From Thermococcus sp. (GTDB taxonomy: Archaea > Methanobacteriota_B > Thermococci > Thermococcales > Thermococcaceae), in contig NZ_WANV01000019.1 in assembly GCF_015521605.1 (NCBI RefSeq), positions 1 to 51,561 on the forward strand: 51,561 bases of DNA, written 5' to 3'. A program made the translations under genes and the position numbers. Numbering within the stretch: the stretch's first letter is position 1; each line of letters begins with the position of its first letter. The notes beneath the pieces are model-generated. The model saw only the letters and a list, made by a program, of their open reading frames with translations. It was not told where the DNA came from and ran no database searches. Shown here one piece after another: positions 6,318-48,221 of the stretch.

Positions 6318-7277
6318 TCACAGCAGCCAGCATGCGGCATAGTGGTCCTTATCAACTTCCTTCAGCTCGGGTTCCTGCTCCTTACAAACCTGCATTGCGT
6401 ACGGGCACCTCGGGTGGAAGCGGCATCCCTTCGGCGGTGTAATGAGGTTCGGGGGCTGTCCCGGGATGAACTCCAGCTTCTCGACGTCCTCATGCAGCCT
6501 CGGTATTGCCGCAAGGAGCTTCTGGGTGTACGGGTGGGCCGGCTCGTAGTAGACCTTCTCGCTGTCTCCTATCTCAACGATCTTACCCGCGTACATTATG
6601 GCGACCCTGTCGCTGATCTCGGCGAGGATGCTGAGGTCGTGGGTGATGAATATCATTGAGAGGCCGAGCTCTTTCTTCAGCTTCTTCATGAGGTTGATGA
6701 TCTGAGCCTGAACAACGACGTCGAGAGCCGTTGTTGGCTCGTCGGCGATAACGACGTCGGGCTCAAGGAGGAGAGCCGTTGCTATGATGACACGCTGCTT
6801 CATACCACCTGAAAGCTCGTGTGGGTAACGGTAGACTATCTCGGGGTCGAGACCGACGAGCTCAAGGTACTTCTGGGCTCTGTCGAGGGCCTCATCCTTG
6901 CTCATGCCCTTGTGGAGTATCAGCGGTTCGGTCATCTGGGTACCGACGGTGTAGACGGGGTTCAGGGCGTTCATTGCTCCCTGGAATATCATGGATATCT
7001 TCTGCCAGCGAATCTCCTTTCTAAGGACGTCCTCCGGAAGGCCGACTATCTCTCTTCCGTCAATCTTCACACTGCCGCTGACTATCTTGCCCGGGGGAGT
7101 CGGCATTCCCATAAGGGTAAAACCAAGGGAGGACTTGCCGCATCCACTCTCACCGGCAAGTCCCAGCACTTCACCCTTCCTGAGGTTAAAGGTGATGTTG
7201 TCGACGGCCTTGACGACACCCTTGCTGGTGAAGTAATACATCTTGAGGTCTTTAACTTCGAGTACGTTCCTAGCCAT
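6318..7277 (-). CDS. Dipeptide/oligopeptide ABC transporter ATP-binding protein (DppD/OppD type)
   Basis: The second ATPase of the peptide importer, 319 aa. Visible are Walker A GESGCGKSS, ABC signature LSGGMKQRVIIATAL, Walker B VVIADEPTTALD and the H-loop FITHDLS. The C-terminal oligo/dipeptide-specific tail again has the four-Cys pattern (GCRFHPRCPY...C...C). The two ATPases probably form a heterodimer. GAGGTGGT lies just before the ATG. The gene is 10 nt downstream of the DppC-like permease. Confidence 0.93.
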   Translation of the reverse strand: MARNVLEVKDLKMYYFTSKGVVKAVDNITFNLRKGEVLGLAGESGCGKSSLGFTLMGMPTPPGKIVSGSVKIDGREIVGLPEDVLRKEIRWQKISMIFQGAMNALNPVYTVGTQMTEPLILHKGMSKDEALDRAQKYLELVGLDPEIVYRYPHELSGGMKQRVIIATALLLEPDVVIADEPTTALDVVVQAQIINLMKKLKKELGLSMIFITHDLSILAEISDRVAIMYAGKIVEIGDSEKVYYEPAHPYTQKLLAAIPRLHEDVEKLEFIPGQPPNLITPPKGCRFHPRCPYAMQVCKEQEPELKEVDKDHYAACWLL

Positions 7278-7287
7278 TTATACCACC

Positions 7288-8748
7288 TCACAGCCTCCTG
7301 AGCCTCGGGTTGAGTATCTTATCGAGGGCCGTACCTATGAGGACGAAGGTAAGGCCGACGACAGCAATTCCAAGCCCAGGCGGGAGAACCCACCACCAGT
7401 AGCCCTTGGTCGTTGCTGACTGTGCCTGAGCCGCATTGAGTATCTGACCCCACGTAACGGCGGTCGGATCACCGATACCAAGGAAGCTCAGCGAAGCCTC
7501 CGCGATAACCGCACCCGGAACGCTGAGGGCTATAACCGCGAAGGCATACGGAAGCAGCTGGGGCAGGATGTGCTTGAAGATTATCCTGCCGTTACCGGCA
7601 CCGAGGGCCCTGGCAGCCTCGATGTACGTCTGCTCCTTGATCTGGAGAGCCATACTCCTCGAAATCCTCGCTATTCCCATCCATCCGAAGATGACCAACA
7701 GCAACACTATGAACATTAGGGTTATGTGTCCCATCGTGGCTCCAATGAGGATAAGTATCGGCAGGCTCGGGATTGAGGCAAATATCTCGTTGATACGCAT
7801 CATGAACTCGTCGGCGTTTCCACCGAGGTACGCACTGGTAACTCCGTAAATGAGGCCTATCACCGTGCTGAGGACAGAGACTAGTATACCAATGGTCAAT
7901 GAAACTCTGCTACCCCAGATGATACCGGCCCAGAGGTCCCTGCCCAGGTAGTCAGTACCCATGGTTCCGTAGCTCCTTCCGAGGAACACTACCTTAATGT
8001 TGTCGTAGGTGATCTGGTTGTCATTGGGGGCAGGGTTGTCAATCTTGAGGATGAGCTTGTAGTCACCGTAAAGGGGCTGTGGGCTCTGGATAATCTGGGT
8101 TACGTTCATTCCCGGCTCAACCCTTGCAAACAGCGGGGCAACCATGTCGCTGATGAGTATCGTCTGAAGCGGCACCTCGAACATCGTTATCTTCCTGCCC
8201 TCTGTGACGTTGACGAGCCATATGTAGATGTTGGATGAGATCGTGCTGTCCCTTCCAACTGAGATGGTGGTGCTCGAACTGAGGGGCTTGTTGGTGAGGA
8301 GCGGCACGGTCTTTCCGTCTGGCCTGAGGAGGTAAACGTTTATGATCGGGGTCTGGGACGGCGAATTAAGCGTCACATTCAGGCCCCTTATTATGATGCC
8401 CTGGGGTCCGAGATAATAGCCGTCCGGGAAGGTGTAGTCCGCTTCAACTATGGTTGTGGTATCGTTCGGGTGGGTGATCTTGAGGTCGTTGAGGTAGTAA
8501 ACCTCCTGGGGAACAAGTTTCTGGGAGGTGAACATGTTGTACCAGGTCGGAGGAACGTTCTTGGGGTTGTCCTCCCAGTATGCGGAGCTCCTCCACTTCT
8601 GCGGAAGGTCTGGCATGGTGGTGTATGGTGCGGTAAGTGCGACCAGTACAAGGATGACGAGGAGAATGACACCGGCTATGCCGGTCTTCTCCCTCTTGAA
8701 TTCTTCGAGGAATTCCTTAAATCCTTCTTTGACGTCGACCCATCTCAT
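7288..8748 (-). CDS. Peptide ABC transporter permease, DppC type with a large external insert
   Basis: An inner-membrane channel subunit, 486 aa. TM1 is at residues ~20-45. A polar domain of roughly 210 residues follows before GTDYLGRDLWAGIIWGSRVSL, where the conserved BPD_transp_1 core with five TM helices begins. The EAA loop reads EAARALGAGNGRIIFKHILPQ. Ordinary bacterial DppC proteins are ~300 aa; the extra mass is the loop after TM1, which should face outside and may contact the binding protein. Ends in the usual ALDKILNPRLRRL. Gap to dppB upstream is 11 nt. Confidence 0.92.
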   Translation of the reverse strand: MRWVDVKEGFKEFLEEFKREKTGIAGVILLVILVLVALTAPYTTMPDLPQKWRSSAYWEDNPKNVPPTWYNMFTSQKLVPQEVYYLNDLKITHPNDTTTIVEADYTFPDGYYLGPQGIIIRGLNVTLNSPSQTPIINVYLLRPDGKTVPLLTNKPLSSSTTISVGRDSTISSNIYIWLVNVTEGRKITMFEVPLQTILISDMVAPLFARVEPGMNVTQIIQSPQPLYGDYKLILKIDNPAPNDNQITYDNIKVVFLGRSYGTMGTDYLGRDLWAGIIWGSRVSLTIGILVSVLSTVIGLIYGVTSAYLGGNADEFMMRINEIFASIPSLPILILIGATMGHITLMFIVLLLVIFGWMGIARISRSMALQIKEQTYIEAARALGAGNGRIIFKHILPQLLPYAFAVIALSVPGAVIAEASLSFLGIGDPTAVTWGQILNAAQAQSATTKGYWWWVLPPGLGIAVVGLTFVLIGTALDKILNPRLRRL

Positions 8749-8759
8749 CGTGAATCACC

Positions 8760-9815
8760 TCACATCTTGGCGGAAGCACCGACCTTGACACGCGGGTCGA
8801 GGAATCCGTAGATCATGTCGGCAAGGACGACTCCGCTCAGGTAGAGCACTGTGAAGAAGTACGTCAGCCCTATGAGGAGGTTGGTCTCGTTCTGCTGGAG
8901 GGCAACCCAGTAGAGCCTGCCCATTCCCGGATAGTTGAAGACGAGCTCACTGATGATTGCACCACCGAGTGATCCAAGGAGGGCGAAGATGATCATGGTA
9001 ACTATCGGCGGGGCAGCGGCACGGAGGGCGTGACCGTAGATGATCTTGTGCTCGGGGATACCCTTAGCCTTGGCGGCCATTATGAAGTCCTCCTGGAGGG
9101 TTCCTATCATGATGTTTCTGGTCGTCCACGCCCAGCCACCGAAGACGACGAAGACGTAGGTGAACACCGGGAGGGCGAGCTTCCAGAGAACGTCCTTAAC
9201 ATGCGCCCAGCCCGTGAGTTGCGGGTCAAACATTGAGCTGAGCGGGAACCAGCCGAGCTTGAATGCGAATATCAGGAGGAACATCATTCCAGTCCACCAC
9301 ATCGGCAGACTGTAGGTGAGCAGTGCGAAGATGGAGAGACCCCTGTCGAAGAGACTGCCCGCGTGCCTCGCGGCCCTAACTCCAAGGAAGATACCTAATA
9401 TAATGACTATTATCGTAGCCGTCGTGAAGAGCAGGATGCTCCTGGGAACGGCGACCTTGATGATATCGGCGACGTTGTTTGTACCGAAAATAGGCATGCT
9501 CGTCGTTCCGAAGTCCAGCCGCAATGTACGCAAAGCCTTATTGTAAACTTTCTGCCAGTAGGGAATGTTCAGTTCATATTTCTCTTCAAGAGATGCCTGC
9601 TTTGCGGCCTTGGCCTGTTCAAAGGCCTCTAAACCCTGACTCTGCTTGATTTTAGCACCCTCAGTTCTTTCCCATAGCATCAATTCCTCGTACATCTTGG
9701 ATCTGTTGCTCTGCTCGGCAACCTTAACGAACAGCGCCGAGATAATAAAGGTCACTATCAACAGGACGAGAATGGCGTTTAGAATCCTAAACACCAGGTA
9801 CTTTAGATACCCCAT
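8760..9815 (-). CDS. Peptide ABC transporter permease, DppB type
   Basis: Partner permease, 351 aa. An N-terminal TM (LVFRILNAILVLLIVTFIIS) is followed by an external segment of ~90 residues that is rich in charged helix. Then comes the BPD_transp_1 domain with the EAA motif AAKAKGIPEHKIIYGHALRAA and the C-terminal FLDPRVKVGA characteristic of DppB. GGGGGTGG lies before the ATG. Own promoter at 9876-9888 suggests the permease/ATPase genes can be transcribed separately from the abundant binding protein upstream. Confidence 0.93.
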   Translation of the reverse strand: MGYLKYLVFRILNAILVLLIVTFIISALFVKVAEQSNRSKMYEELMLWERTEGAKIKQSQGLEAFEQAKAAKQASLEEKYELNIPYWQKVYNKALRTLRLDFGTTSMPIFGTNNVADIIKVAVPRSILLFTTATIIVIILGIFLGVRAARHAGSLFDRGLSIFALLTYSLPMWWTGMMFLLIFAFKLGWFPLSSMFDPQLTGWAHVKDVLWKLALPVFTYVFVVFGGWAWTTRNIMIGTLQEDFIMAAKAKGIPEHKIIYGHALRAAAPPIVTMIIFALLGSLGGAIISELVFNYPGMGRLYWVALQQNETNLLIGLTYFFTVLYLSGVVLADMIYGFLDPRVKVGASAKM

Positions 9816-9925
9816 TTTTCCACCCCCACGTAGGTTGCTCGTGTTTAATGTATCTTTTTCAGCATTGTAAAACTGACTTTATATATCTTACTGCATAGAT
9901 GTGCACATTTTCATAGAAGTGCACC
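9816..9925 (-). promoter_or_regulatory. Promoter and putative operator of the dppBCDF-like unit
   Basis: AGATATATAAAGT (minus strand, 9876-9888) is a good TATA box, giving a start near 9855 and a ~40-nt leader with GGGGGTGG. Upstream of it are two GTGCAC palindromes at 9901-9906 and 9919-9924, spaced 18 nt. The first extends to ATGTGCACAT. Their placement upstream of the TATA box suits an activator or a repressor that blocks TBP/TFB. Confidence 0.45.
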
Positions 9926-9959
9926 GCAGAACTCCGCCAGGGATACCCGGATTTGGGAC

Positions 9960-9994
9960 AAAATTTCAAAAAAGAGGGGAAAGAACGAAACTAC
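9960..9994 (-). terminator. T-rich terminator after the binding-protein gene
   Basis: On the minus strand the stop codon is followed within ~25 nt by a pyrimidine-rich stretch containing TCTTTTTTG (9968-9975). Oligo-T tracts end transcription in Thermococcales. Together with the dppB promoter it separates the binding protein from the permease genes. Confidence 0.4.
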
Positions 9995-9995
9995 T

Positions 9996-12476
9996 TCACT
10001 TCTTCTTGGTGAAGTACCAGGCGGCCGCGGCGATGATGATTATCACCAGGCCGACAACGACGTAGGTGGTGGTGTTGGTTCCTCCAGCCGGGGTCGTGGT
10101 GGTCGTGGTCTCGGTCGGGCTCGGGCTGCTGGTTGTCTCGGTCGGGCTCGGGCTGCTGGTTGTGGGCGGCTGGGTGGTCGTGGTCTTGGTTATATCGTCC
10201 CAGGTGAGGCCTGAGATCTTGAGCATGACCTTGGCGAGGTCGTCGACGTGCTCCTTGGTGAGGAGGTCGAGCCAGAGGACACCCTCAGCACCGCTGCTGA
10301 AGGAGTAGGTCTTGTCGATGCCGTAGTCCTTGCTCCTGGCTACGAGCTCGCCCATGGCCCAGTAGAGCTCCCACGGAAGCTGCGGGTAGAACACGTAGAA
10401 TCCTGCGGTCATGTCGTCGGCAAGCGGGTGCTCGTAGGTACCGTAGACGACGTAGCCGTCGTTGGTCCACTGCCAGCCAAGGATGCTGGCGAGGGTTCCG
10501 GCGGTTCCACCGAGGCTCTCATCGTAGTACGGGTCGTCAGCGCCGTCCTTGTATGCCCAGGTGTAGAGGAACGCGACGTAGTACTTGAGGTCGTCGATGT
10601 TGCCCTTAACGCCGTTGTGCCACTCGCCGAAGTCACAGGTGACGGTAACCTTGACCTTGGCGGTCTTGCCAGCGTTCTCGGGAATCCAGCCCTGGGTCTG
10701 GTTGTAGATGACCGCATCGTCCGGAACGGTGAACTCACCGCGCTCAAGGTTCCACTTGCACCTGTACGGGGTGACGATACCGTCGAAGTTGGTGGTCGCA
10801 CCGTAGTCCCTGATGAGGTTCCAGACACGGACGCTGTAAACGTCGCTCAGACCACCGACCGGGTTGAAGGCGCTCATGAACATGGCACCGGTTGAGGCGA
10901 ACTGGGCGATCTTGAGGTGCTTGTCCGGGGTTTCAGCGGTCATGATGCTCCAGCGCTGGCCGATACCGGTGCTGGCCTCCGGGGTGATCTTAATAACCCT
11001 CTGCTTGTTGGCCGGGTAGAACTCCCAAGTCTCGATGAGGAAGACCCTCTCGCTCTCAAGGATGCCTATGAGCATGCTTATCTTCTGGAGGTCCCAGTAC
11101 TGCTCCTTGGTGGTAATCTTGATCGGCTGCTCAGGGACAAGGTCGGGGTTGAGGTGCGGGGTGTTCTGGGCCTTCTCCTTGGTAATCTCGAAGTAGGTCA
11201 GCAGGTAGGTAAGCTCCTCCTCGGTCCACTTGAGCATCGGGCCAAGGCTGTCGGCGCTCGTGTAGTACTCGGCACCTATCTTCTGGAGTCCAGCGTTGAC
11301 GTCTCCGTTGCCGATGTACTTGAGGGCCTCCTCAACGGTGACGGTGTTAACGTGCTTGGGCTCAACGGCACCCGGAACGTATCCATACCAGGCGGCGTAG
11401 AACCAGGCGGTGTAGTCGTCAATCCAGACGCTCGGAATACCGCTGGTACCCCATCCACCGGTGTAGATGTTCCACTCGTAGTTGCTCGGCGGCTTGGCGA
11501 AGACGACCTGACCGGCCTTCTGCCTGTCCCAAAGGAGCCTGTCAACCTTGAAGCCAACCTTCTTCTCAAGGAGGTCGGCGACATAGAGACCGATGTCCTT
11601 CCTCTCGTCCTCGATACGGATGATGAACTTGACGGTAACCGGCTGGCCATCGAAGTACCACATTCCGTCCTTCTTCTCAAGGGTGTGGCCGTACTTGGCA
11701 ACCTCCTGGGCAGCCTTGTCCATGGCGCTGGCTATGATCTTAAGGGCGAGCTCCTCGTTGCCAGCACCGCTGAGGCCGAGGGCCTTGTAGACCGGCTCGA
11801 AGTACTTGTCGGCCGGGTGGCTCGGCCTGATACAGCCAAGCATCGGGGCACCGCTACCCTGGTAGATGTTCTGGACGATGTAGTCCCTGCTGATGAGCCA
11901 GTTCATGGCAAACCTAACTTCCCTGATGGCGAAGGGGTTGAAGTAAACCTGGTCACCGACGGTGACGATCGGAGCGTCCTTGTCAGGGTCGTGGTAGGTG
12001 TTGAAGGTCAGCTCATTGTACGAGCTGGCACTCTTGTACAGGTTGAGGTTGGCAAGAACGTCCTCACCAAGACCCTGGTACTTTCCAGCCGGGAAGGAGA
12101 ACATACCAAGGTCGTACTCACCCTTGGCGATCTGGAGGATAACGTTCTCAGGGTTCTGGACACCCTGGTACTCAATAACATCGGCATAGCCGTCCTTCGG
12201 AAGGGTGTCGGTGTAGATGGTCCTCGGGCCGGTGAACTTCTCAAGCTTGAGATAGAGGTTCTCCGGGGAGTACATGACGAGCATGTACGGACCATTGCTG
12301 ATAACGAAGTGGCCGTACTTGAGGTACCACTGGAGGTCGGCCTTGAAGCGGGCCTTGGCCTCGTCGCTGTTCAGGGGTATGTCCTTGGGGGTGTAGTCAG
12401 CCGCGCTGACTGCATGGACGGCAAAAATACTAAACAACATCAAGCCCATAATAAACAATCCCAAAGCCTTCTTCAT
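9996..12476 (-). CDS. Membrane-anchored peptide/solute-binding protein of the Dpp-type ABC importer
   Basis: An 826-aa extracellular binding protein (SBP_bac_5 type). Residues 1-26 form a signal peptide ending VSAA. The body has family features such as VRFAMNWLISRDYIVQNIYQGSG and long aromatic-rich segments. A Thr/Ser/Pro linker of ~45 residues follows, including a duplicated TSSPSPTET unit, and then a C-terminal TM helix (YVVVGLVIIIIAAAAWYF) with a KKK stop-transfer. This is the usual archaeal arrangement with a likely O-glycosylated stalk. At 826 aa it is longer than bacterial DppA (~540). GGAGG lies 10 nt before the ATG. Codon usage is strongly G/C-ending, as in highly expressed genes. Confidence 0.93.
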   Translation of the reverse strand: MKKALGLFIMGLMLFSIFAVHAVSAADYTPKDIPLNSDEAKARFKADLQWYLKYGHFVISNGPYMLVMYSPENLYLKLEKFTGPRTIYTDTLPKDGYADVIEYQGVQNPENVILQIAKGEYDLGMFSFPAGKYQGLGEDVLANLNLYKSASSYNELTFNTYHDPDKDAPIVTVGDQVYFNPFAIREVRFAMNWLISRDYIVQNIYQGSGAPMLGCIRPSHPADKYFEPVYKALGLSGAGNEELALKIIASAMDKAAQEVAKYGHTLEKKDGMWYFDGQPVTVKFIIRIEDERKDIGLYVADLLEKKVGFKVDRLLWDRQKAGQVVFAKPPSNYEWNIYTGGWGTSGIPSVWIDDYTAWFYAAWYGYVPGAVEPKHVNTVTVEEALKYIGNGDVNAGLQKIGAEYYTSADSLGPMLKWTEEELTYLLTYFEITKEKAQNTPHLNPDLVPEQPIKITTKEQYWDLQKISMLIGILESERVFLIETWEFYPANKQRVIKITPEASTGIGQRWSIMTAETPDKHLKIAQFASTGAMFMSAFNPVGGLSDVYSVRVWNLIRDYGATTNFDGIVTPYRCKWNLERGEFTVPDDAVIYNQTQGWIPENAGKTAKVKVTVTCDFGEWHNGVKGNIDDLKYYVAFLYTWAYKDGADDPYYDESLGGTAGTLASILGWQWTNDGYVVYGTYEHPLADDMTAGFYVFYPQLPWELYWAMGELVARSKDYGIDKTYSFSSGAEGVLWLDLLTKEHVDDLAKVMLKISGLTWDDITKTTTTQPPTTSSPSPTETTSSPSPTETTTTTTPAGGTNTTTYVVVGLVIIIIAAAAWYFTKKK
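10110..10163. repeat. 27-nt perfect tandem duplication in the binding-protein stalk
   Basis: The 27-base unit at 10110-10136 is repeated exactly at 10137-10163. On the coding (minus) strand each copy encodes a nine-residue Ser/Pro/Thr unit of the stalk. Perfect identity suggests a recent slippage or duplication event. Confidence 0.9.
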
Positions 12477-40181: not shown

Positions 40182-42911
40182 TCAGCCGAGGCGCTTTTTC
40201 ACCTCGGCTATAGCTTCCTCCGCCTTGAGCGGGTTCTTTATCCTGCCCTGGGCGAGCTCCTTCCGTCCGCCGCCACCACCGCCGGCGACGGAGGTCACCA
40301 CCTTTGCGAGCTCCCCGGCCTTGAGGTCGAGGCCGTCCCCAACAGCAACGACGAAATGTCCCTCCCTGCTGATAAGGACGATGACCCTGTTGTCCTTCCT
40401 GAGCTTGTTGGCGGCCTCGCGGAGGTCATCCATAGTCCCCTCCACCACGGCTCCGATGAACTCGACGTCGCCGACCTTCTCGGCCTCACTCTCAAGCTCG
40501 TAAACGAGGAGCTTTGCGAGTTCTTTTCTCAGCTTCTCCACCTCTTTTCTGGCCTGCTTCCACTCGTTGAAGAACCTCTCCGCCGTCTCGGGAACCTTCT
40601 CCGGCGGCACGCGGAAGACCTCGCTCGTCCTCTTGAGTATCCTCTCCGTCTCCTGCATCCAGCTGACCGCTGCCTCACCAGCGGCGAAGATTATACGCTC
40701 GACTCCGTCCTGTATGCGCTCCGTCCTTAGAATCTTAATAGGACCTATAAGTCCGGTGTTCGGCAGGTGGGTTCCACCGCAGGCCTGGACATCCCAGTCC
40801 TCGATGTTGAGTATCCTGATCACCCTGCCGGGAACAACGCCACCCTGGTACAGGCGGAAGCCGTACTTCATCTCGGCCTCGGTCCTCGGCAGCCACTCCC
40901 ACCTGACCGGCCTGTTCTCCATGACGATGCGGTTTGCAAGGCGCTCTATCTCCCTGAGTTCCTCCTCGGTTATGCGCTTGTAGTGGGAAATGTCCAGCCT
41001 CGCCCAGTCGGTGTGGAGCTGGCTCCCGGCCTGCCAGATGTGCTTGCCGAGAACCCTCACAAGGGCGCCCATGAGGACGTGGGTTCCTGTGTGGTGACGC
41101 ATGTGCTGTATTCTCCTCTCCCAGTCAATCCTTCCGTGAACCTTAGCCCCCTCCTTGAAGGCCTCGGGCCTCTCCACCCTGTGGAGGATTACCTTTCCGA
41201 CCTTCTGGACGTCCAGGACCTTCACTCCGTTCAGCTCTCCGAGGTCACAGGGCTGACCGCCGCCCTCTGGGTAGAAGGCGGTCTGGTTGAGAACGACCCA
41301 GTCGTCTATGACCCTGAGAACCTCTGCGTCGAACTCCTTCATGAACGGGTCTTCGTAGTAGAGCGTCCTCGTGTCGGGCAGGTCCTTGACGAGCTCGAAG
41401 TCAACGACGTATTTGGCGGCCTCCTCCCTGGCGGTCTTCTCGGCGTCCTTGGCGACGAGGGTGTAGAAGTTGTCCGGTATGTGAACCCTAATCCCCTCCT
41501 CCTCAGCAACTTCCGCGACTATCTCAGGGGTTAGGCCGTGGCTCTCGTAGAACAGGATGAGCTTTTCGAGGGGTATCTCCTCCCTGCCCGACTTCTTGAG
41601 CTTGGCTATCTCCCTCCTCACGAGGTCGCTTCCGCGCTTGAGGGTCTCGTGATAGCGCTTCTCCTCGACGTCGACTATATCGAGGATTACCTCCTCCATC
41701 TCCTTGAACTCCGGGAACGTCGGGGAGAGTGCCTTGATGTGCATCGCCATTATCTCGCTCAGCGGCATTTCCAGTCCAAGCTCGCGGAGGTGTCTTATGC
41801 TCTTCCTTATGAGGAGCCTCGCCAGGTAGCCGGCTTTAAGGTTGGAGGGGATAACACCATCGGCCAGCATGAAGGTCAGCGCCTTTGTGTGGTCCGCTAT
41901 CGCGTAGATGAGCTCGTAGGGCCTGACGGCTCTCTCAAGCTCCTCGACGCTTATGCCGACGCGCCTGGCCACCTCCCGACGGAGAACCTTGAGGTCTCCC
42001 ATGTCCTCGATGTCAAACATTCCCGCCAGGCGGGAGTTCTCCATGAGGATGCGCTCGTCTATCTTCTCTATCCCCGCGGCCTTCTTCAGCGGCTCGACGA
42101 CGTAGCCGAGGACGGCATCGTAGGCCGTCGGAGTCCCCTGGCTCATCCAGACGAGCCTCTCAAGGCCGTAGCCGGTGTCAACTACTCTCGTCTCCATCGG
42201 CACGTAGCGGTCGCCCTTTATCTCAATGACCTGGCTGGGGTCGGCGTTCTCGGGGGCCTTCTTGTACTGCATGAAAACGAGGGTTGCAACCTCCAGACCG
42301 CGGTAGAGTACCTCGAAGGCAGGCCCCGCGTTTCCCCCACCGGCCCACGGGTTCTCCTTGAAGGTGATGTCCTCGCCCTTCATCCCAAGGTCTTTTGTAA
42401 AGAACTCGAAGGCCAGCTCAACCGTCTCGTCCATCCAGTAGATCGGCTTTCCAGGGTAGTTGAAGGCGTGGTGGGCCATCATTTCAAATATCGTGAAGTG
42501 CCTGCCGGTTATTCCGACGTTGTCTATGTCGGTGAACCTTATTGAGGGCTGGCTTATTGTGAGGGGGTTCGCGGGCGGGTCGGCTTCGCCGCTGATTACC
42601 CACGGCTGAAAGTCCATTATGCTCGCCCCAACGAGGAGCACATCGTCTCTCCAGCGCGGCAGAACTGGGTAGCGCTTCACCCTGCCGTGGCCGTGCCTCT
42701 CAAAGAAGCTCAGGAACTTCTCGCGCATCTCCTCCAAGGTGTACTTCTTAGGTATTCCCGGCTTTCCTATGAAGGCGTACTCGTCACAGGGCGGGTCGCC
42801 GCAGGTCTCCCTGTCTGGATCGAGCGTCCAGAAGGGCTTACCGCACACTTTACACGTTTTTCGTATCCATCCTTCCTCTTCAAACATTTTAGTGGTCATG
42901 TCCATGCTCAT
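40182..42911 (-). CDS. alaS: Alanyl-tRNA synthetase (archaeal type)
   Basis: Charges tRNA(Ala). About 909 aa. An archaeal N-terminal zinc-binding segment ([12 protein letters not shown]...C...C) precedes the catalytic core with [17 protein letters not shown] and ERLVWMSQG. The editing domain has [12 protein letters not shown] and [11 protein letters not shown] coiled coil and a C-terminal DHHA1 domain with [16 protein letters not shown] end the protein. GGTGA lies 5 nt before ATG 42911. ATG 42905 and 42899 are in frame but less well placed, and the GTG at 42920 overlaps the ribosome binding site. Confidence 0.97.
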
Positions 42912-42949
42912 GATCCTCACCTTCTTACTCCTAAGCCTATGCTACGGTG

Positions 42950-42976: not shown

Positions 42977-44011
42977 TCATTTCTTCCCTTCAGCACCCTT
43001 TTCCTGGAAGTAGTAGAGCACCCCCTCGTTCAGGAAGAAGTAGATGCTTTCGTCGGGGTCGTGGATCACGCGTTTGTTCATATCTATGGCGGCTTCAACA
43101 AGATCGGTAAGAGAAGCCAGCTTCACCCTCTCGGCGGGCAGGCGCTTAGGGAGGCTTCCCGAGCTTATCCACTTGGCAAGCTTTTTCTTTTCCCGCTCAA
43201 GTTTCATCTCCTCGACGTTGTATGCCGTTGGGTCGAACTTCCAGCCTGCAACCACCACAATTCCCGAAAGAACACCAAAGAGCACTGAGAGTGCCAGGAA
43301 CAAGGCACGTCTTCTTTGATTTACGACCCGGGTTTCGGTAATAGTCTCGGTAAACGTCTGGGTGCCGTTTTTCAGGTCACCCGTGATGCTGTAAAACCCC
43401 TCATAAGGGAAGCTTATACTACCCCTGAACTCCTGAGTGCCCTCCACTGGTCTGCCGTTAACGGTGCCGGAGTACCTGATCCTCCCGATGAGCTCAACCC
43501 CGACGTTCTCCCTGGGAAGCCTCAGGATGTTCCTGGTGAGCTCTATCCTGTTAAAGACATCACTGACGTTGAGAAGCAGCCTATCCACGAAGGAGCTCCC
43601 CGTTGAGGAGTTAGAAATCGCCCGGTACGTCTCCTCCACAACCCTCTCCTTGTCGTAGGAGAGATAGTAAACAACCCTCAGCTCCCTCTCGAATCTGACG
43701 TTGACGTTCTCCCCGCTTATGTTAAAGTGAAGCTCCACCTCGGCCGCAGGCATTATGGACACGGGGTATATCGGCAGTCCAACTCTTCTTCCAACGTCCC
43801 ATATTGGGTTGGGCTGAACTACAACGCCCTTTCCTTCAATCCCACCCGACCAGAGGTACAGGGTTCTGGTGACCGTATCCTTCGTGGCAACCGCTGTCGG
43901 AGTCGTGATGTACGCGTACCCAAAAGCCACCGCCAGAAGCAGAAAGATCACGGTTAGAGGCACCCAACGCCGTTTTATCCGAGAGAGCAGGTTATATTCC
44001 CAGAGTTCCAT
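42977..44011 (-). CDS. DUF5305-type membrane protein, last gene of the fibre operon
   Basis: 344 aa. TM1 (LTVIFLLLAVAFGYAYI) is followed by an external domain of ~210 residues with many NxS/T sites and paired phrases such as ELHFNISGENVNVRFE and EFRGSISFPYEGFYSI. TM2 (ALFLALSVLFGVLSGIVVVAG) and a cytoplasmic tail of ~75 residues, with KLASLTDLVEAAIDMNKRVIHD, follow. This matches my memory of Pfam DUF5305, found in archaea beside signal peptidases. GGAGGCGG precedes the ATG, which lies 20 nt inside the signal peptidase gene. A role in processing or anchoring the fibre subunits is inferred from location only. Confidence 0.72.
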   Translation of the reverse strand: MELWEYNLLSRIKRRWVPLTVIFLLLAVAFGYAYITTPTAVATKDTVTRTLYLWSGGIEGKGVVVQPNPIWDVGRRVGLPIYPVSIMPAAEVELHFNISGENVNVRFERELRVVYYLSYDKERVVEETYRAISNSSTGSSFVDRLLLNVSDVFNRIELTRNILRLPRENVGVELIGRIRYSGTVNGRPVEGTQEFRGSISFPYEGFYSITGDLKNGTQTFTETITETRVVNQRRRALFLALSVLFGVLSGIVVVAGWKFDPTAYNVEEMKLEREKKKLAKWISSGSLPKRLPAERVKLASLTDLVEAAIDMNKRVIHDPDESIYFFLNEGVLYYFQEKGAEGKK

Positions 44012-44921
44012 GGTGCCGCCTCCTTACCCGGCTTTTTATATCCGGGAACTCCCTCACCCACAGGGGAAACGTTACGAGCGTCAGCAGGAGGGATATTATA
44101 ACGTTCAGCGATTCAAGTATAAAAGGATTGACCTCGTACGCCCTGACCAGCCACATCACGGGGAGGACTGAGTTAACGGCAAGTTCGTAGTCTCCGGCGT
44201 ACGTTTCACCCGGAGGGAGGTAGACGTAGTCGGGCACGTCTTTTCTAAGCAGGAGAACTGGGAACGTGCCCGTATTAGTGACCCCCCGGGTTGTTGTCTC
44301 CAGCAGTGGATGGAGCATTATGGTAAGCACGGCGAGGGAGATAACGAATATTCCAACAGCCCGCAGGGGAAGCACTTCCTCCACGGTCCTCGACCTCCAG
44401 CGTTTCAGCTTCTCTTCCTGTCTTTCAGTCTTTGGAGAGTATCTCATAAGGTACGAGAGCTCGCTGTACAGAACTACGAGACCTGGAACAACTACGAGAA
44501 GGAAATACACAGCGAGTTTGACAGTCCTGTCAGGATTGTGCCTTGTGAGATATCCGAGGTAGGGAACCGAGAATACAGCCTTCCCAACGACGTTCTCTGA
44601 AGGAACCAAAAAGGGGTCAAGATCGTCGTTGTTGTCGCCCTTGGTCTGAAAGTACCTGCGGCTCCCGTTGGTGATCACATCAACGACCCTGTGGGTGACC
44701 AGTGTTTTCCTGTCTTTAGCATCGGGGGGGTGAAACGCTATGACGTCCCCAACTCCCACCGTGCTGTGATCAACCCTCTCAACGACCACCATGTCTCCCG
44801 GGTTGAAGAGGGGCTGCATGCTCCCGCTGAGAACCACGAGGAGGTCAAGATTCCCCAAGTGGGGAAGGAGAATAAAGGCTGGTGCAAGGAAAACGAGGAG
44901 TACGAGGTATTTTACCCTCAT
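43992..44921 (-). CDS. Signal peptidase I, archaeal/ER (SipW-like) type
   Basis: 309 aa. TM1 (YLVLLVFLAPAFILLPHL) leads to the catalytic serine in VVLSGSMQPLFNPGDMVVVE. The general base is His in TLVTHRVVD rather than Lys, as in SipW/ER-type enzymes. The third box reads QTKGDNNDDLDP, with acidic residues for the Ser-His dyad. The C-terminal region adds about three TM helices, making it longer than the usual ~180 aa. Start at ATG 44921, 4 nt after the upstream stop, with GGGTG before it; the longer frame to 44972 has no support. It probably processes the signal peptides of the three neighbours. Confidence 0.9.
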   Translation of the reverse strand: MRVKYLVLLVFLAPAFILLPHLGNLDLLVVLSGSMQPLFNPGDMVVVERVDHSTVGVGDVIAFHPPDAKDRKTLVTHRVVDVITNGSRRYFQTKGDNNDDLDPFLVPSENVVGKAVFSVPYLGYLTRHNPDRTVKLAVYFLLVVVPGLVVLYSELSYLMRYSPKTERQEEKLKRWRSRTVEEVLPLRAVGIFVISLAVLTIMLHPLLETTTRGVTNTGTFPVLLLRKDVPDYVYLPPGETYAGDYELAVNSVLPVMWLVRAYEVNPFILESLNVIISLLLTLVTFPLWVREFPDIKSRVRRRHHGTLGI

Positions 44922-44925
44922 CGGG

Positions 44926-45528
44926 CTACACCCACTTAAACTTGATGCACGGGATGAGGTAGATTTCCTCAACGTGGTCGTCGAAGACGAAGGTTATTTC
45001 AAAGGCGGCCGAAACTACAGACCCGAACCCAAGCTCAAGGGGATGAGGCCCGCCCCCCAGCGCCACCCCAATTTCAACCTCCGCAGGGGAGGTGGAGTTG
45101 ACATTAAACGTCCTATTGTCTATCTTCAGGTAGTTAAGCCTTCCGCCACCCCACCATTTCACGACAACCCCCTTAAGAACGACGTCCCTGCCCATGTTGT
45201 CAACATATACGCCGCTGAGAACCGCCTCACTGCATATTCTTCTGAAGCACTCGGGGGAGTGTTCCAGACTATCAGGGTCGTTTTTTGCGGTGGATATTAT
45301 CCCTTCAACCTCGGAGACATCCGAACTGCCGCCATGATCACAGCAGGGGACGTGGCAGAGAAAAGTGAGCGTCGCGTTTTCATAAAGAATGGTGACGCTG
45401 GAGGGCGGGATCGCGGCGGTCAGTTCAGCAGTTATGGTCTCGGTGTCGGAGAAGTAGGAAAAAGAAGCCTGATTGATGTAGAGAGAAAAGAGCACCACAA
45501 CGAGGGGAATGAGCAGGAGCTTTCTCAT
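44926..45528 (-). CDS. SipW-type signal peptide protein with six cysteines
   Basis: 200 aa. Signal peptide of ~24 residues with the SipW-class junction SFSYFSDTET. The mature part contains C58, C62, C63 and H65 (CHVPCCDHGG), C94, C99 and C194, which could make three disulphides or bind metal, and several beta strands. Asn-x-Ser/Thr sites are present. It has no AGTLDL segment, unlike the two TasA-like proteins of the operon, so it may be a minor tip, base or accessory subunit. It ends 4 nt before the signal peptidase start. Confidence 0.75.
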   Translation of the reverse strand: MRKLLLIPLVVVLFSLYINQASFSYFSDTETITAELTAAIPPSSVTILYENATLTFLCHVPCCDHGGSSDVSEVEGIISTAKNDPDSLEHSPECFRRICSEAVLSGVYVDNMGRDVVLKGVVVKWWGGGRLNYLKIDNRTFNVNSTSPAEVEIGVALGGGPHPLELGFGSVVSAAFEITFVFDDHVEEIYLIPCIKFKWV

Positions 45529-45529
45529 T

Positions 45530-45883
45530 TTACCTCACCACCAGTGCCGAGAGTAGCGAGAGTGACACCGCAAGGGCGATCACAACGAGTGCCATCTTAC
45601 TAACCACTTCGATTCCCCTGAGAATCTGCGAGTAGGATACCTGGGCAGAGGCCAGGCGATCCACCAGGACGTTCGCGTAGTTCACCAGCGAGTTGTTTGA
45701 GACATCGATCAGCGGTATGTCGATGGAAGCCGTGCTGGTGTTCGAAGGTTTGGGCGTTTCGGTCCTCCCTTCCATGAGGAGGATTGGATTGGAGCCAGAG
45801 GCCTGACTAGTCCCATAAATCATTGTGGTGTACACCAGAAAGCCCATAACAACAAAAAGAAAGATTATGGAAAGCGACCTCAT
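45530..45883 (-). CDS. Small protein with N- and C-terminal TM helices, in the fibre operon
   Basis: 117 aa. An N-terminal hydrophobic segment (SLSIIFLFVVMGFLVYTTMI) is followed by a polar region of ~70 residues rich in Ser/Thr/Asn, with no Cys. A C-terminal TM helix (MALVVIALAVSLSLLSALVV) ends the protein. It lies between the second fibre-like gene (11-nt gap) and the six-Cys protein (1-nt gap). No family recognised. An anchor or assembly factor is possible. Confidence 0.65.
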   Translation of the reverse strand: MRSLSIIFLFVVMGFLVYTTMIYGTSQASGSNPILLMEGRTETPKPSNTSTASIDIPLIDVSNNSLVNYANVLVDRLASAQVSYSQILRGIEVVSKMALVVIALAVSLSLLSALVVR

Positions 45884-45894
45884 CGGCCCGACCC

Positions 45895-46599
45895 TCAGGT
45901 CTCCTGTTCAAGCTTGACGTGTACGGTCATAATGCAATAGTCGCCTTGCCAGTAGTTCTGGGGCTTCCCTGTGTCAATAATCTGGAATTCAAGCTCAAAC
46001 GCGGTGTATCCCGAAATCAAACTGGGATTTCCCTCTGTTTGTGGTGGGTAAAGGCCCGTGATCTCCTGTTGGGATAGGTCATAGAGGGTTATATTTCCAT
46101 CGTTATCCACATCCTGAATGTAAGTGTTATCCCAGTCGTTACCCGAGTTCCAGACTATGAGGATGTTAGGATTGTTGCCGGTGCCATCACTATACTTTAT
46201 CTGAGTAACTTTGATTTCCTTGAGCCAGCTCCCTACTCCCGTCAGATCCGTATCAGACTCGGGACCGGGGTTGTCCCCGTCAGCTGGATTTCCATTGTCG
46301 TCCTCGTGACAGTCAAAGGTGAACCAGACCTTCACGTTACCTGCATCAACGTCCCCTATGTTATATATCTTTATTTCTCCGTCACCTGTTGTTAACCCTG
46401 GCTGACCTGGGTATCCGTTGCTTATTATCCACTGACCGTTTGGGTCAAGGATAGTGTTTGTAATAAGGAGGTCAAGCGTTCCGAGCTCTATGTAGTTGCC
46501 GCTGCTGGTCTCCGTATCCTGATAGACCGCCCATGTGCCGTAGCCCATCACTGCAACCAGCAGGCCGATGAGGAGGAAAGTTACTGCAATGCTCCGCAT
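45895..46599 (-). CDS. TasA-like fibre protein with SipW-type signal peptide (subunit 2)
   Basis: 234 aa. Signal peptide SIAVTFLLIGLLVAVMGYGTWA is followed by VYQDTETSSGNYIELGTLDL, the same junction and first strand as subunit 1. The mature domain is beta-rich and acidic. It has calcium-site-like D-rich loops, VDNDGNITLYDLS and DDNGNPADGDNPGPESDTD. TasA/camelysin-type proteins form extracellular fibres by donor-strand exchange. GGGGTGACC lies before the ATG. Confidence 0.82.
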   Translation of the reverse strand: MRSIAVTFLLIGLLVAVMGYGTWAVYQDTETSSGNYIELGTLDLLITNTILDPNGQWIISNGYPGQPGLTTGDGEIKIYNIGDVDAGNVKVWFTFDCHEDDNGNPADGDNPGPESDTDLTGVGSWLKEIKVTQIKYSDGTGNNPNILIVWNSGNDWDNTYIQDVDNDGNITLYDLSQQEITGLYPPQTEGNPSLISGYTAFELEFQIIDTGKPQNYWQGDYCIMTVHVKLEQET

Positions 46600-46631
46600 T
46601 GCTGGTCACCCCTGTAAAGAACTAAAGGGGA

Positions 46632-47171
46632 TCAGCTCTGCTCAAGCAGGAAGTCCATATCAAAGGTAACGCTATCGCCCTGTATTCCGTTGTCGGCGTT
46701 TGAGTCAATTTCCCAATCGACCTGTATGTTCACACTCTGTCCGGCGGTAAGTGAACCGAGATCCAGCTGCTGTCCCTCCAAGTTTGCCAGAGTGTCAGTT
46801 ATAACTGGGTTCCCGCTGGTGTCATAGATGGTGAGAATAACTGCATTTTCAATACTCCAAGTGCCTGAATCAACTGAGTTTGGAGTATTCTCTGCAGGAT
46901 TGACATTTGAGATTGTCACGTAGAGATGTCCATCAACGGTACCATCGTTAGACACTGCGATTGTCCAGCTCCCTGAGTCACCGGGTGCAACACCATCACC
47001 GTCAACACTCTGGGTAACACTGCCAGCTCCGTTGACGCTCAAGTCGAGGGTTCCCGCCATAATGTAGTTGCCGCTGCTGGTCTCGGTGTCGCTGAAGTAC
47101 GCCCAGGTTCCTGCGCCAAGCCCCATCACTACCATACCTACCAAAACCAAACTCAGCAGTGCACCTTTCAT
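46632..47171 (-). CDS. TasA-like fibre protein with SipW-type signal peptide (subunit 1, likely major)
   Basis: 179 aa. Signal peptide with core SLVLVGMVVMGLGAGTWA, then YFSDTETSSGNYIMAGTLDLSV, the defining SipW-cognate motif with the AGTLDL first strand of TasA-like proteins. The rest is Gly/Asn/Thr-rich beta structure without Cys. First gene of the operon, with the best ribosome binding site (GGAGGTG 8 nt before ATG 47171) and its own strong promoter, so it is probably the main subunit. The frame is open to 47201, but that would place the hairpin and RBS inside the ORF. Confidence 0.85.
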   Translation of the reverse strand: MKGALLSLVLVGMVVMGLGAGTWAYFSDTETSSGNYIMAGTLDLSVNGAGSVTQSVDGDGVAPGDSGSWTIAVSNDGTVDGHLYVTISNVNPAENTPNSVDSGTWSIENAVILTIYDTSGNPVITDTLANLEGQQLDLGSLTAGQSVNIQVDWEIDSNADNGIQGDSVTFDMDFLLEQS

Positions 47172-47187
47172 TTTCGAACACCTCCGA

Positions 47188-47213
47188 AAGGGCCCCTTCA
47201 TACCAGGGCCCTT
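47188..47213 (-). promoter_or_regulatory. 8-bp perfect hairpin at the 5' end of the fibre mRNA
   Basis: AAGGGCCC (47188-47195) and GGGCCCTT (47206-47213) are exact inverted repeats around a 10-nt loop. The TATA box predicts a transcript start near 47212, so the stem would sit at the extreme 5' end of the mRNA, just before the RBS at 47180-47186. Confidence 0.6.
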
Positions 47214-47228
47214 AGTAAATATCCAATT

Positions 47229-47243
47229 TCACATATTTAAGGA
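47229..47243 (-). promoter_or_regulatory. TATA box of the fibre operon
   Basis: CCTTAAATATGT on the minus strand (47231-47242), in an AT-rich context, predicts a transcription start near 47212. Confidence 0.6.
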
Positions 47244-47269
47244 AGAAGAAACGCTCTTTCTTAGTTGGA

Positions 47270-47300
47270 TTACGGAACAATGTTACGGAACAGTGTTCAG
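47270..47300 (-). promoter_or_regulatory. Tandem putative operator upstream of the fibre promoter
   Basis: TTACGGAACAATG (47270-47282) and TTACGGAACAGTG (47283-47295) are direct repeats of period 13. Each contains an inverted repeat of the form GAACA-N-TGTT(C/A): GAACA-A-TGTTA, then GAACA-G-TGTTC. They lie about 35-65 nt upstream of the TATA box, as for an activator or for cooperative binding by a small dimeric regulator. The regulator gene next door ends at 47325. Confidence 0.55.
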
Positions 47301-47324
47301 TTGATTTGAGGCCTTATTTTAGTC

Positions 47325-47600
47325 TTAGAGCAAACTTTCCATACTGAACAGATCATCCAATTCCCTGATTATTGTAAAAAACTCCCTCAGAAAGGCCTGC
47401 CCCTTATCGGTTGCCCTGTAAATTTTCCTGTTGTTCTCGACGATCTCCACAAGGTAGCCCTTCCTGAGGAGGTACTTTATGTAGCCGCTTGCCAGCTTAA
47501 AGTTCAGGTTTGCCCTGTAAACTATCTGGGTTTTGGTTGCACCGGTGCCGTTGGTAGAGCGCAGTATATCTGCTATTATCTCAACCTTCGACCTTCTCAC
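47325..47600 (-). CDS. Small winged-helix transcriptional regulator
   Basis: About 91 aa. The winged-helix pattern is plain: EIIADILRSTNG, helix-turn-helix GATKTQIVYRANLNFKLASGYIKYLLRKGYL, wing VEIVENNRKIYRATDKGQAFL, and a C-terminal dimerisation helix REFFTIIRELDDLF. It fits small archaeal HTH_45-type regulators. GTG 47600 is chosen because GGTGAT lies 4 nt before it (47610-47605); the frame to 47672 has no RBS. Adjacent to and co-directional with the fibre operon, which it probably controls. Confidence 0.82.
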   Translation of the reverse strand: MRRSKVEIIADILRSTNGTGATKTQIVYRANLNFKLASGYIKYLLRKGYLVEIVENNRKIYRATDKGQAFLREFFTIIRELDDLFSMESLL

Positions 47601-47957
47601 AGCAATCACCCCAGTACCGATGTAATCGGAGACATTTGAGTCAAGTGGATTACACAAAACAGATTGTATCAATCATGGTTGAACCGTTTAGATTAAATTG
47701 TCATGTTATTTAAGCTTTGCGTATATTATAACGATTTGGATGTTTTTTCAGCCAAGTACATTCCAAAGAAAGATGTGTATTGCAAAAAATATAACAATAA
47801 CCTCCAGATGTAGCCCAAGTTACATCCAGTGTTACAAAAACGGCAACACCGTAACCATATTACTGAACAATATTCCCTTAAATCCGACAAAACTTTGTAG
47901 TTATTCCAACGAATTATAGTGGTGTTATCATAGGGCAAAATTGGATAACGTTAACCA
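47601..47957. promoter_or_regulatory. AT-rich gene-free region upstream of the regulator
   Basis: 357 nt with no credible gene. Candidate TATA for the regulator: GCTTAAATAAC (minus strand, about 47707-47717). CCGAT-GTA-ATCGG at 47617-47629 is a perfect inverted repeat beside the RBS, a likely autoregulatory site. GAACA-A-TATTC at 47865-47875 resembles the fibre operator. TGGATAACGTTAACCA (47942-47957) is a near-palindrome abutting the coiled-coil gene's stop. The remainder is AT-rich and shows nothing else. Confidence 0.4.
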
Positions 47958-48221
47958 TCACTCCTCAAGGTCATCCTCATCCAGGAGTATTATCGGGAAC
48001 TTGACCTTCTTCAGCAGTTCGACCATCTTCTTGTAGGTTCTCTTTTGAACTTCAAGCTTATGCCTCAGGCTGGCGTTCTCTATGGCGAGTCGATTGGCCT
48101 CATCGACCTTCAGGTTGAGCTGCATACGGAGTTCGATTATCTCCTCCTCAAGCTCTCGAATTGAACGCTCAAGACGTTCAATCTCCTCCAGATACTCACG
48201 GCAGATGCGCTTTCGTATCAT
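47958..48221 (-). CDS. Small coiled-coil protein
   Basis: 87 aa. Residues ~8-70 form a continuous heptad-rich helix (YLEEIERLERSIRELEEEII, then LRMQLNLKVDEANRLAIENA), followed by FPIILLDEDDLEE. No family recognised; such small coiled coils can be DNA-bound or scaffold proteins. No clear ribosome binding site precedes the ATG. Its 5' end lies only 5 nt after the D box of the sRNA, so the two may share a promoter. Confidence 0.6.
   Translation of the reverse strand: MIRKRICREYLEEIERLERSIRELEEEIIELRMQLNLKVDEANRLAIENASLRHKLEVQKRTYKKMVELLKKVKFPIILLDEDDLEE

Follow-up and report, generated by a model that had tools for sequence, protein, structure and literature searches.

In Bacillus subtilis, the tapA-sipW-tasA operon (8aur; PMC9674648, PMC10151520) unites a TasA-fold fibre subunit with a GTLDL strand, a dedicated signal peptidase, SipW, and an accessory protein, TapA, which carries the same N-terminal strand on a beta-sandwich of its own. 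The N-terminus of TapA is unstructured, nearly identical to that of TasA and joined to a complete immunoglobulin domain, and TapA starts the Bacillus fibre by donating its N-terminal strand (PMC10151520). Bacillus cereus has two camelysins and one SipW, in the order sipW-calY1-bc_1280-calY2 (PMC10151520). Archaeal TasA-like donor-strand fibres are represented by AbpA, of the bundling pili of Pyrobaculum calidifontis, and by AbpX (9sj2, 9rhp); a citation in PMC11952670 assigns ABPx fibres to Pyrodictium abyssi. Sulfolobus threads (Saci_0406, 7pnb) are also donor-strand filaments, for which a cap candidate is reported nearby and neither a chaperone nor an usher is definite (PMC9715654). Here we describe a seven-gene cassette from Thermococcus sp. 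that probably makes a TasA-type surface fibre. It lies in a stretch of 51,561 nucleotides (contig NZ_WANV01000019.1, hereafter the window) from a 2.03-Mb Thermococcaceae genome, G000, of the same genus group as G062.

The cassette occupies 42977-47672 on the minus strand, runs from a winged helix-turn-helix (wHTH) regulator to a DUF5305 protein and is followed by alaS. Like tapA-sipW-tasA, it combines in one operon a TasA-like subunit with the GTLDL strand, a SipW-like peptidase, and an accessory protein that bears the shared N-terminal strand in front of a separate beta-sandwich. Unlike that operon, it has two subunits (S1 and S2), an archaeal-type peptidase with about 150 extra residues, partners in a DUF5305 protein and a small protein with two transmembrane (TM) segments, and a wHTH gene with a tandem candidate operator. 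The pair of camelysin-like proteins served by one SipW-like peptidase recalls B. cereus, whereas the B. cereus cluster is bacterial, differs in gene order and has no DUF5305 protein named in it. All seven open reading frames were found where a first-pass annotation, made from the letters of this DNA, had placed them as a tight operon with a wHTH neighbour. From S1 onward the genes are separated by 32, 11, 1 and 4 bases and then overlap by 20, so S1 to DUF5305 are likely to share one transcript. The same gene order is kept in ten Thermococcaceae genomes; the arrangement is therefore not due to chance.

Homology and fold both connect S1 (46632-47171) to TasA. The protein matches Pfam Peptidase_M73 (PF12389, camelysin/TasA) with 46.4 bits (5e-12; cut-off 22.5) and TIGR04088, the NCBIfam model of SipW-type signal peptides, with 41.7 bits (cut-off 19). 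Since it reaches only 21 bits on NF046066, the Bacillus TasA equivalog (threshold 450), S1 is best classed as a relative of TasA, not as TasA itself. A family profile built from eleven S1 relatives hit four sequences in the whole PDB, two of TasA (E about 5e-5 to 9e-5 for 5of1 and 8aur) and two of AbpX (1e-3); AbpA was not matched by the profile at the sequence level. The alignment with TasA takes in the GTLDL strand near the start of the mature protein. The AlphaFold2 model of S1 has a mean pLDDT of 77, mostly above 90 in the body and below 50 for residues 12-37. When it was compared with 350,542 chains in Foldseek, the only matches below 1e-3 were the Sulfolobus thread 7pnb, which came first at 10% identity, and the TasA fibre 8aur (E 2e-4); CS20 came third, and other fimbrial subunits, including FimG, stood lower. 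The predicted S1 fold, on which the first-pass annotation had suggested its reading be checked, is TasA-like.

S2 (45895-46599) scores 25.1 bits on PF12389 in a match restricted to residues 13-51, the signal and first strand, and 19.4 bits on TIGR04088. It aligns with the S1 family over its full length (hhalign, 99.7%); it is thus a full-length S1 homologue, and its TasA-like fold is predicted from that homology. S2 has an invariant cysteine pair, Cys97/Cys222, and its residues 163-174 (window 46078-46113) form an EF-hand-like loop, DVDNDGNITLYD, found in five of ten lineages, through which the fibre could possibly be calcium-dependent. In S1, the putative donor segment is 65% identical across genomes, compared with 35% for the body. 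Donor segments of S1 and S2 are more alike within a genome (57.7%) than between genomes (49.3%; permutation p 0.0003, or 0.003 once near-identical genomes are collapsed), which hints at co-polymerisation, although relatedness confounds the comparison.

The accessory protein (44926-45528) has only its first 40 or so residues, the signal peptide and the YFSDTET segment, in common with S1 and S2. Its body is modelled as a confident, unrelated beta-sandwich (pLDDT 83), with low confidence for residues 24-39. This anatomy resembles that of TapA, and because a shared strand is joined to an apparently complete sandwich, the protein would start or anchor the chain; we regard it as a candidate TapA-like initiator by anatomical likeness, with no sequence kinship or specific structural match to TapA found as far as tested. 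It had been annotated as a six-Cys protein, and the count is right; however, only three of the cysteines are nearly invariant in the family, so that six cysteines do not define it, and we call it the Cys protein. Between S2 and the Cys protein lies the small protein (45530-45883), which is syntenic in relatives, has a TM segment at each end by hydropathy, as annotated, and matches no family in Pfam or NCBIfam.

The long peptidase (43992-44921) reaches 99.8 bits on TIGR02228, the archaeal/ER-type signal peptidase I model (cut-off 51.85), and 101 bits on NF046067, the Bacillus SipW equivalog, below its threshold of 190; it is best described as SipW-like, not as SipW. Its first half, and no more of it, matches eukaryotic SEC11 structures (E 3e-15), and the extra residues at its C-terminus include two TM segments. 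The Ser-His-Asp catalytic motifs SGSM/THR/GDNN are invariant in eleven relatives, in agreement with the annotated His-type signal peptidase I. The gene that directly follows encodes the DUF5305 protein (42977-44011; PF17231, 125 bits, 4.5e-36), a membrane protein, as annotated, with the order TM segment, ectodomain, TM segment, cytosolic tail. In 27 of 36 sampled loci, mostly from Halobacteriota, a SipW-like peptidase adjoins DUF5305, probably an undercount because the flank fetched was short (1.5 kb). No PDB relative of DUF5305 was found by sequence, nor any paper naming the family within the literature collection searched. Its linkage to SipW-like peptidases leads us to propose an assembly or anchoring role for DUF5305, which gives the family a function that can be tested.

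Thermococcaceae also have a core DUF1102-SipW-DUF5305 operon. Like the cassette, it contains a SipW-like peptidase, DUF5305 and small exported proteins, but its substrates are DUF1102 proteins, not TasA-like ones. In the genome studied here it is found at L076 (G000:C1:22000-38000, 7248-12198), where the peptidase and DUF5305 accompany three DUF1102 proteins and one further exported protein. Some DUF5305 protein occurs in 67 of 84 good Thermococcaceae genomes, mostly of this second type. Elsewhere in the same genome, a SipW-like peptidase of 190 residues stands beside an exported protein of 128 residues (L045, G000:C36, 14328-15305), and peptidases like it occur in most Thermococcus genomes; a lone camelysin/TasA-like gene lies at 5446-6087 of L044 (G000:C33). 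Because of these other peptidases and the lone gene, the description of the operon as self-contained needs care. Camelysin-like genes were found in 63 of 74 good Thermococcaceae genomes, so most have a TasA-like protein besides the cassette.

The regulator (47325-47672, minus strand) belongs to the HTH_45/Sso10a family (Pfam HTH_45, 1e-22; NCBIfam Sso10a, 82.5 bits), as expected from its annotation as a winged-helix protein; its true start is probably at or near RRSKVEI, giving about 90 residues. S1 is preceded by GGAGGTG at its start at 47171, and a longer open reading frame starting at 47201 is merely mechanical. Upstream of the S1 start, two GTTnCGnAAC-like palindromes (47269-47291), 13 bp apart, stand just before the TATA-like element CTTAAATA, and every one of the ten copies has this tandem. 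When each promoter was dinucleotide-shuffled, 0-3 of 1000 shuffles scored as high as the observed pair; as four of the ten copies are close relatives, the six more distant ones carry the weight. Single sites are not enriched across the window (15 observed, 16.9 expected), and only the promoter tandem stands out. The wHTH protein is the obvious candidate to bind it.

Taken as a fibre system, the cassette could work as follows. In each of S1, S2 and the Cys protein, cleavage by the long SipW-like peptidase behind the TWA/FSY junction would free an N-terminal strand (YFSDTET...GTLDL). S1 and S2 would then polymerise, probably together, as the strand of one subunit inserts into the incomplete beta-sandwich of the next, while the Cys protein, with the same strand on a different sandwich, would serve in the manner of TapA as the chain's starting point or anchor. 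At the membrane, assembly may be held in place or guided by DUF5305 and the two-TM protein, the tandem palindromes may let the wHTH protein govern the S1 promoter, and the outward-facing parts of S1 and S2 would diversify and be swapped between lineages. The fibre may serve in adhesion or biofilm formation. The first-pass claim that this is an operon for a TasA-like fibre, equipped with a peptidase, an accessory protein and a regulator of its own, is thus supported by families, fold and synteny. It would extend TasA-type fibres to an operon of hyperthermophilic Thermococcaceae in which TapA has an anatomical counterpart, and should a Thermococcus amenable to genetics accept the cassette, these proposals can be tested directly.

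Several observations weigh against this assignment. The filament itself is inferred from genes and models. TM-scores of the S1 model are modest (0.35 to 7pnb, 0.48 to 8aur), and its low-confidence N-terminus is compatible with a donor strand but no more than that. The within-genome similarity of donor segments falls to p 0.03 when one genome is left out and may partly reflect shared ancestry or gene conversion. A SipW-type junction had been annotated in three proteins; TIGR04088 recognises it in S1 and S2, while the Cys protein, at 16.1 bits, stays below the cut-off of 19 although its YFSDTET motif is plain. The Cys protein has no PDB sequence match, and structure searches return only generic beta-sandwiches for it. 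The palindrome motif was derived from the same ten promoters in which it is scored, and as a general archaeal signature it was rejected, being found in none of the methanogen, ANME or other copies.

That S1 and S2 are instead non-polymerising surface proteins of TasA fold, such as adhesins or monomers associated with the S-layer and exported by a peptidase of their own, is an unlikely account to which we still give some weight: fold and signal peptide by themselves do not prove polymerisation. However, the nearest structural matches of S1 are donor-strand filaments, its N-terminal segment is far more conserved than its body, and the sharing of this segment by both subunits and the accessory protein fits strand exchange better than free monomers. 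The Pfam name of PF12389, Camelysin metallo-endopeptidase, would make S1 a metallopeptidase on the strength of its match to that family. This is highly improbable, and an M73 identity was rejected: the HExxH zinc motif is absent from S1, S2 and the Cys protein, S1 has a single histidine altogether, and TasA homologues are named camelysins in the TasA literature (PMC10151520). A strand-exchanging TasA-type fibre remains our preferred reading of the cassette.

The two subunits have histories that differ from those of the machinery genes. By identity, G000 goes with G071, and G031 with G013, in the peptidase, DUF5305, Cys protein and wHTH genes, the second pair being less clearly supported in the peptidase tree. 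S2 crosses this grouping, pairing G000 with G031 (73%) and G071 with G013 (80%), and S1 pairs G000 with G030 (65%), though the peptidases of these two are 42% identical. Approximately unbiased (AU) tests rejected G000+G071 and G031+G013 for S2 (p 2e-10 and 6e-59) and G000+G071 for S1 (5e-6); for the peptidase they rejected G000+G031, G071+G013 and G000+G030 (2e-4, 4e-4 and 6e-11). Since the clades were picked after the identities had been seen, these values are somewhat optimistic. Along the DNA, G000 and G071 are mostly 76-96% identical across the machinery genes; identity drops to about 48-66% within S1 and to 57-69% within S2, then rises again at the S1-S2 junction and in the signal-peptide region. 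Between G031 and G013 it is 55-61% inside most of S2 and about 72-95% in the machinery. Piecewise exchange of the exported parts, or their diversification, would account for such a pattern.

Lineage sorting, in which ancient allelic or duplicated forms of the subunits were lost differently, could produce discordance without horizontal exchange, and the very deep divergence of S1 (32-65% identity for most pairs) is compatible with old allelic classes. We consider it the less probable source, at perhaps a minor share of the likelihood, because S2 pairs cross the peptidase grouping and the AU tests reject the swapped groupings in both directions; moreover, G071 and G013 are closer in S2 than in the adjoining S1 and two-TM genes, and no genome has two copies of the cassette peptidase. 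Exchange of subunits while the machinery stayed would provide an archaeal case in which to ask what selects for surface-fibre variation outside bacteria. A bolder proposal, which we hold only tentatively, is that the long SipW-like peptidase and DUF5305 form a conserved archaeal membrane platform coupling cleavage to donor-strand assembly, a counterpart of chaperone-usher systems, and that recombination diversifies the two co-polymerising subunits as a swappable pair of surface antigens, perhaps because the fibre is recognised by viruses or competitors.

Of 94 Thermococcaceae genomes, 10 (about one in nine) have the complete cassette and three a decayed one. The wHTH gene occurs in exactly the ten with a complete cassette and the long peptidase in eleven. 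In the eleventh, G076, the wHTH, S1 and S2 genes are lost, the coiled-coil gene that flanks the cassette is fused to the two-TM gene, and transposase-like open reading frames stand between the Cys protein and the peptidase. The remnant beside alaS in G028 is the DUF5305 end only, and that near alaS in G007 consists of pieces of wHTH, S1, S2, peptidase and DUF5305. The coiled-coil gene precedes alaS in all 14 sampled cassette-less genomes, in one with a gene between. From these remnants and this adjacency, the cassette is a discrete unit subject to frequent loss. The idea of one fixed insertion site was rejected: the decayed copy in G007 lies upstream of the coiled-coil gene, not between it and alaS, so the position of the cassette has differed at least once. 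This pattern of completeness and decay, the discordant subunit histories, the tandem palindromes and the DUF5305-SipW linkage are new here.

Counterparts outside the family make the proposal of a distinct Thermococcales system too strong. Methanosarcina spelaei (L101), Methanococcoides (L100) and another euryarchaeote (L113) have an S1-like gene, both a short and a long SipW, a Cys-protein counterpart and DUF5305, and L101 and L113 also an S2-like gene. In a metagenome-assembled genome of ANME-1 (L124) the set is reduced to a related wHTH, S1, two SipW-like peptidases and DUF5305, and an S1-like gene with a short SipW is found on many contigs of Patescibacteria, Chloroflexi and Bacillota. With these versions in Methanosarcinaceae, ANME-1 and bacteria, the module is not specific to Thermococcales. 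A viral origin was set aside after one scan of viral contigs with the S2 family found no relative, which leaves other viral relatives possible. A one-subunit version in another genus (L077, G073:C1:447000-460000, 6855-10578) comprises a helix-turn-helix regulator, a TasA-like protein, a SipW-like peptidase and DUF5305.

Both flanking genes lie outside the cassette on the minus strand, alaS at 40182-42920 and the small coiled-coil gene at 47958-48221; the latter is conserved across Thermococcaceae and has weak similarity to YabA. In one genome (G005:C1:446264-446575), the alaS match falls inside a reported open frame of 11262 residues, where the sequence is probably masked or faulty.

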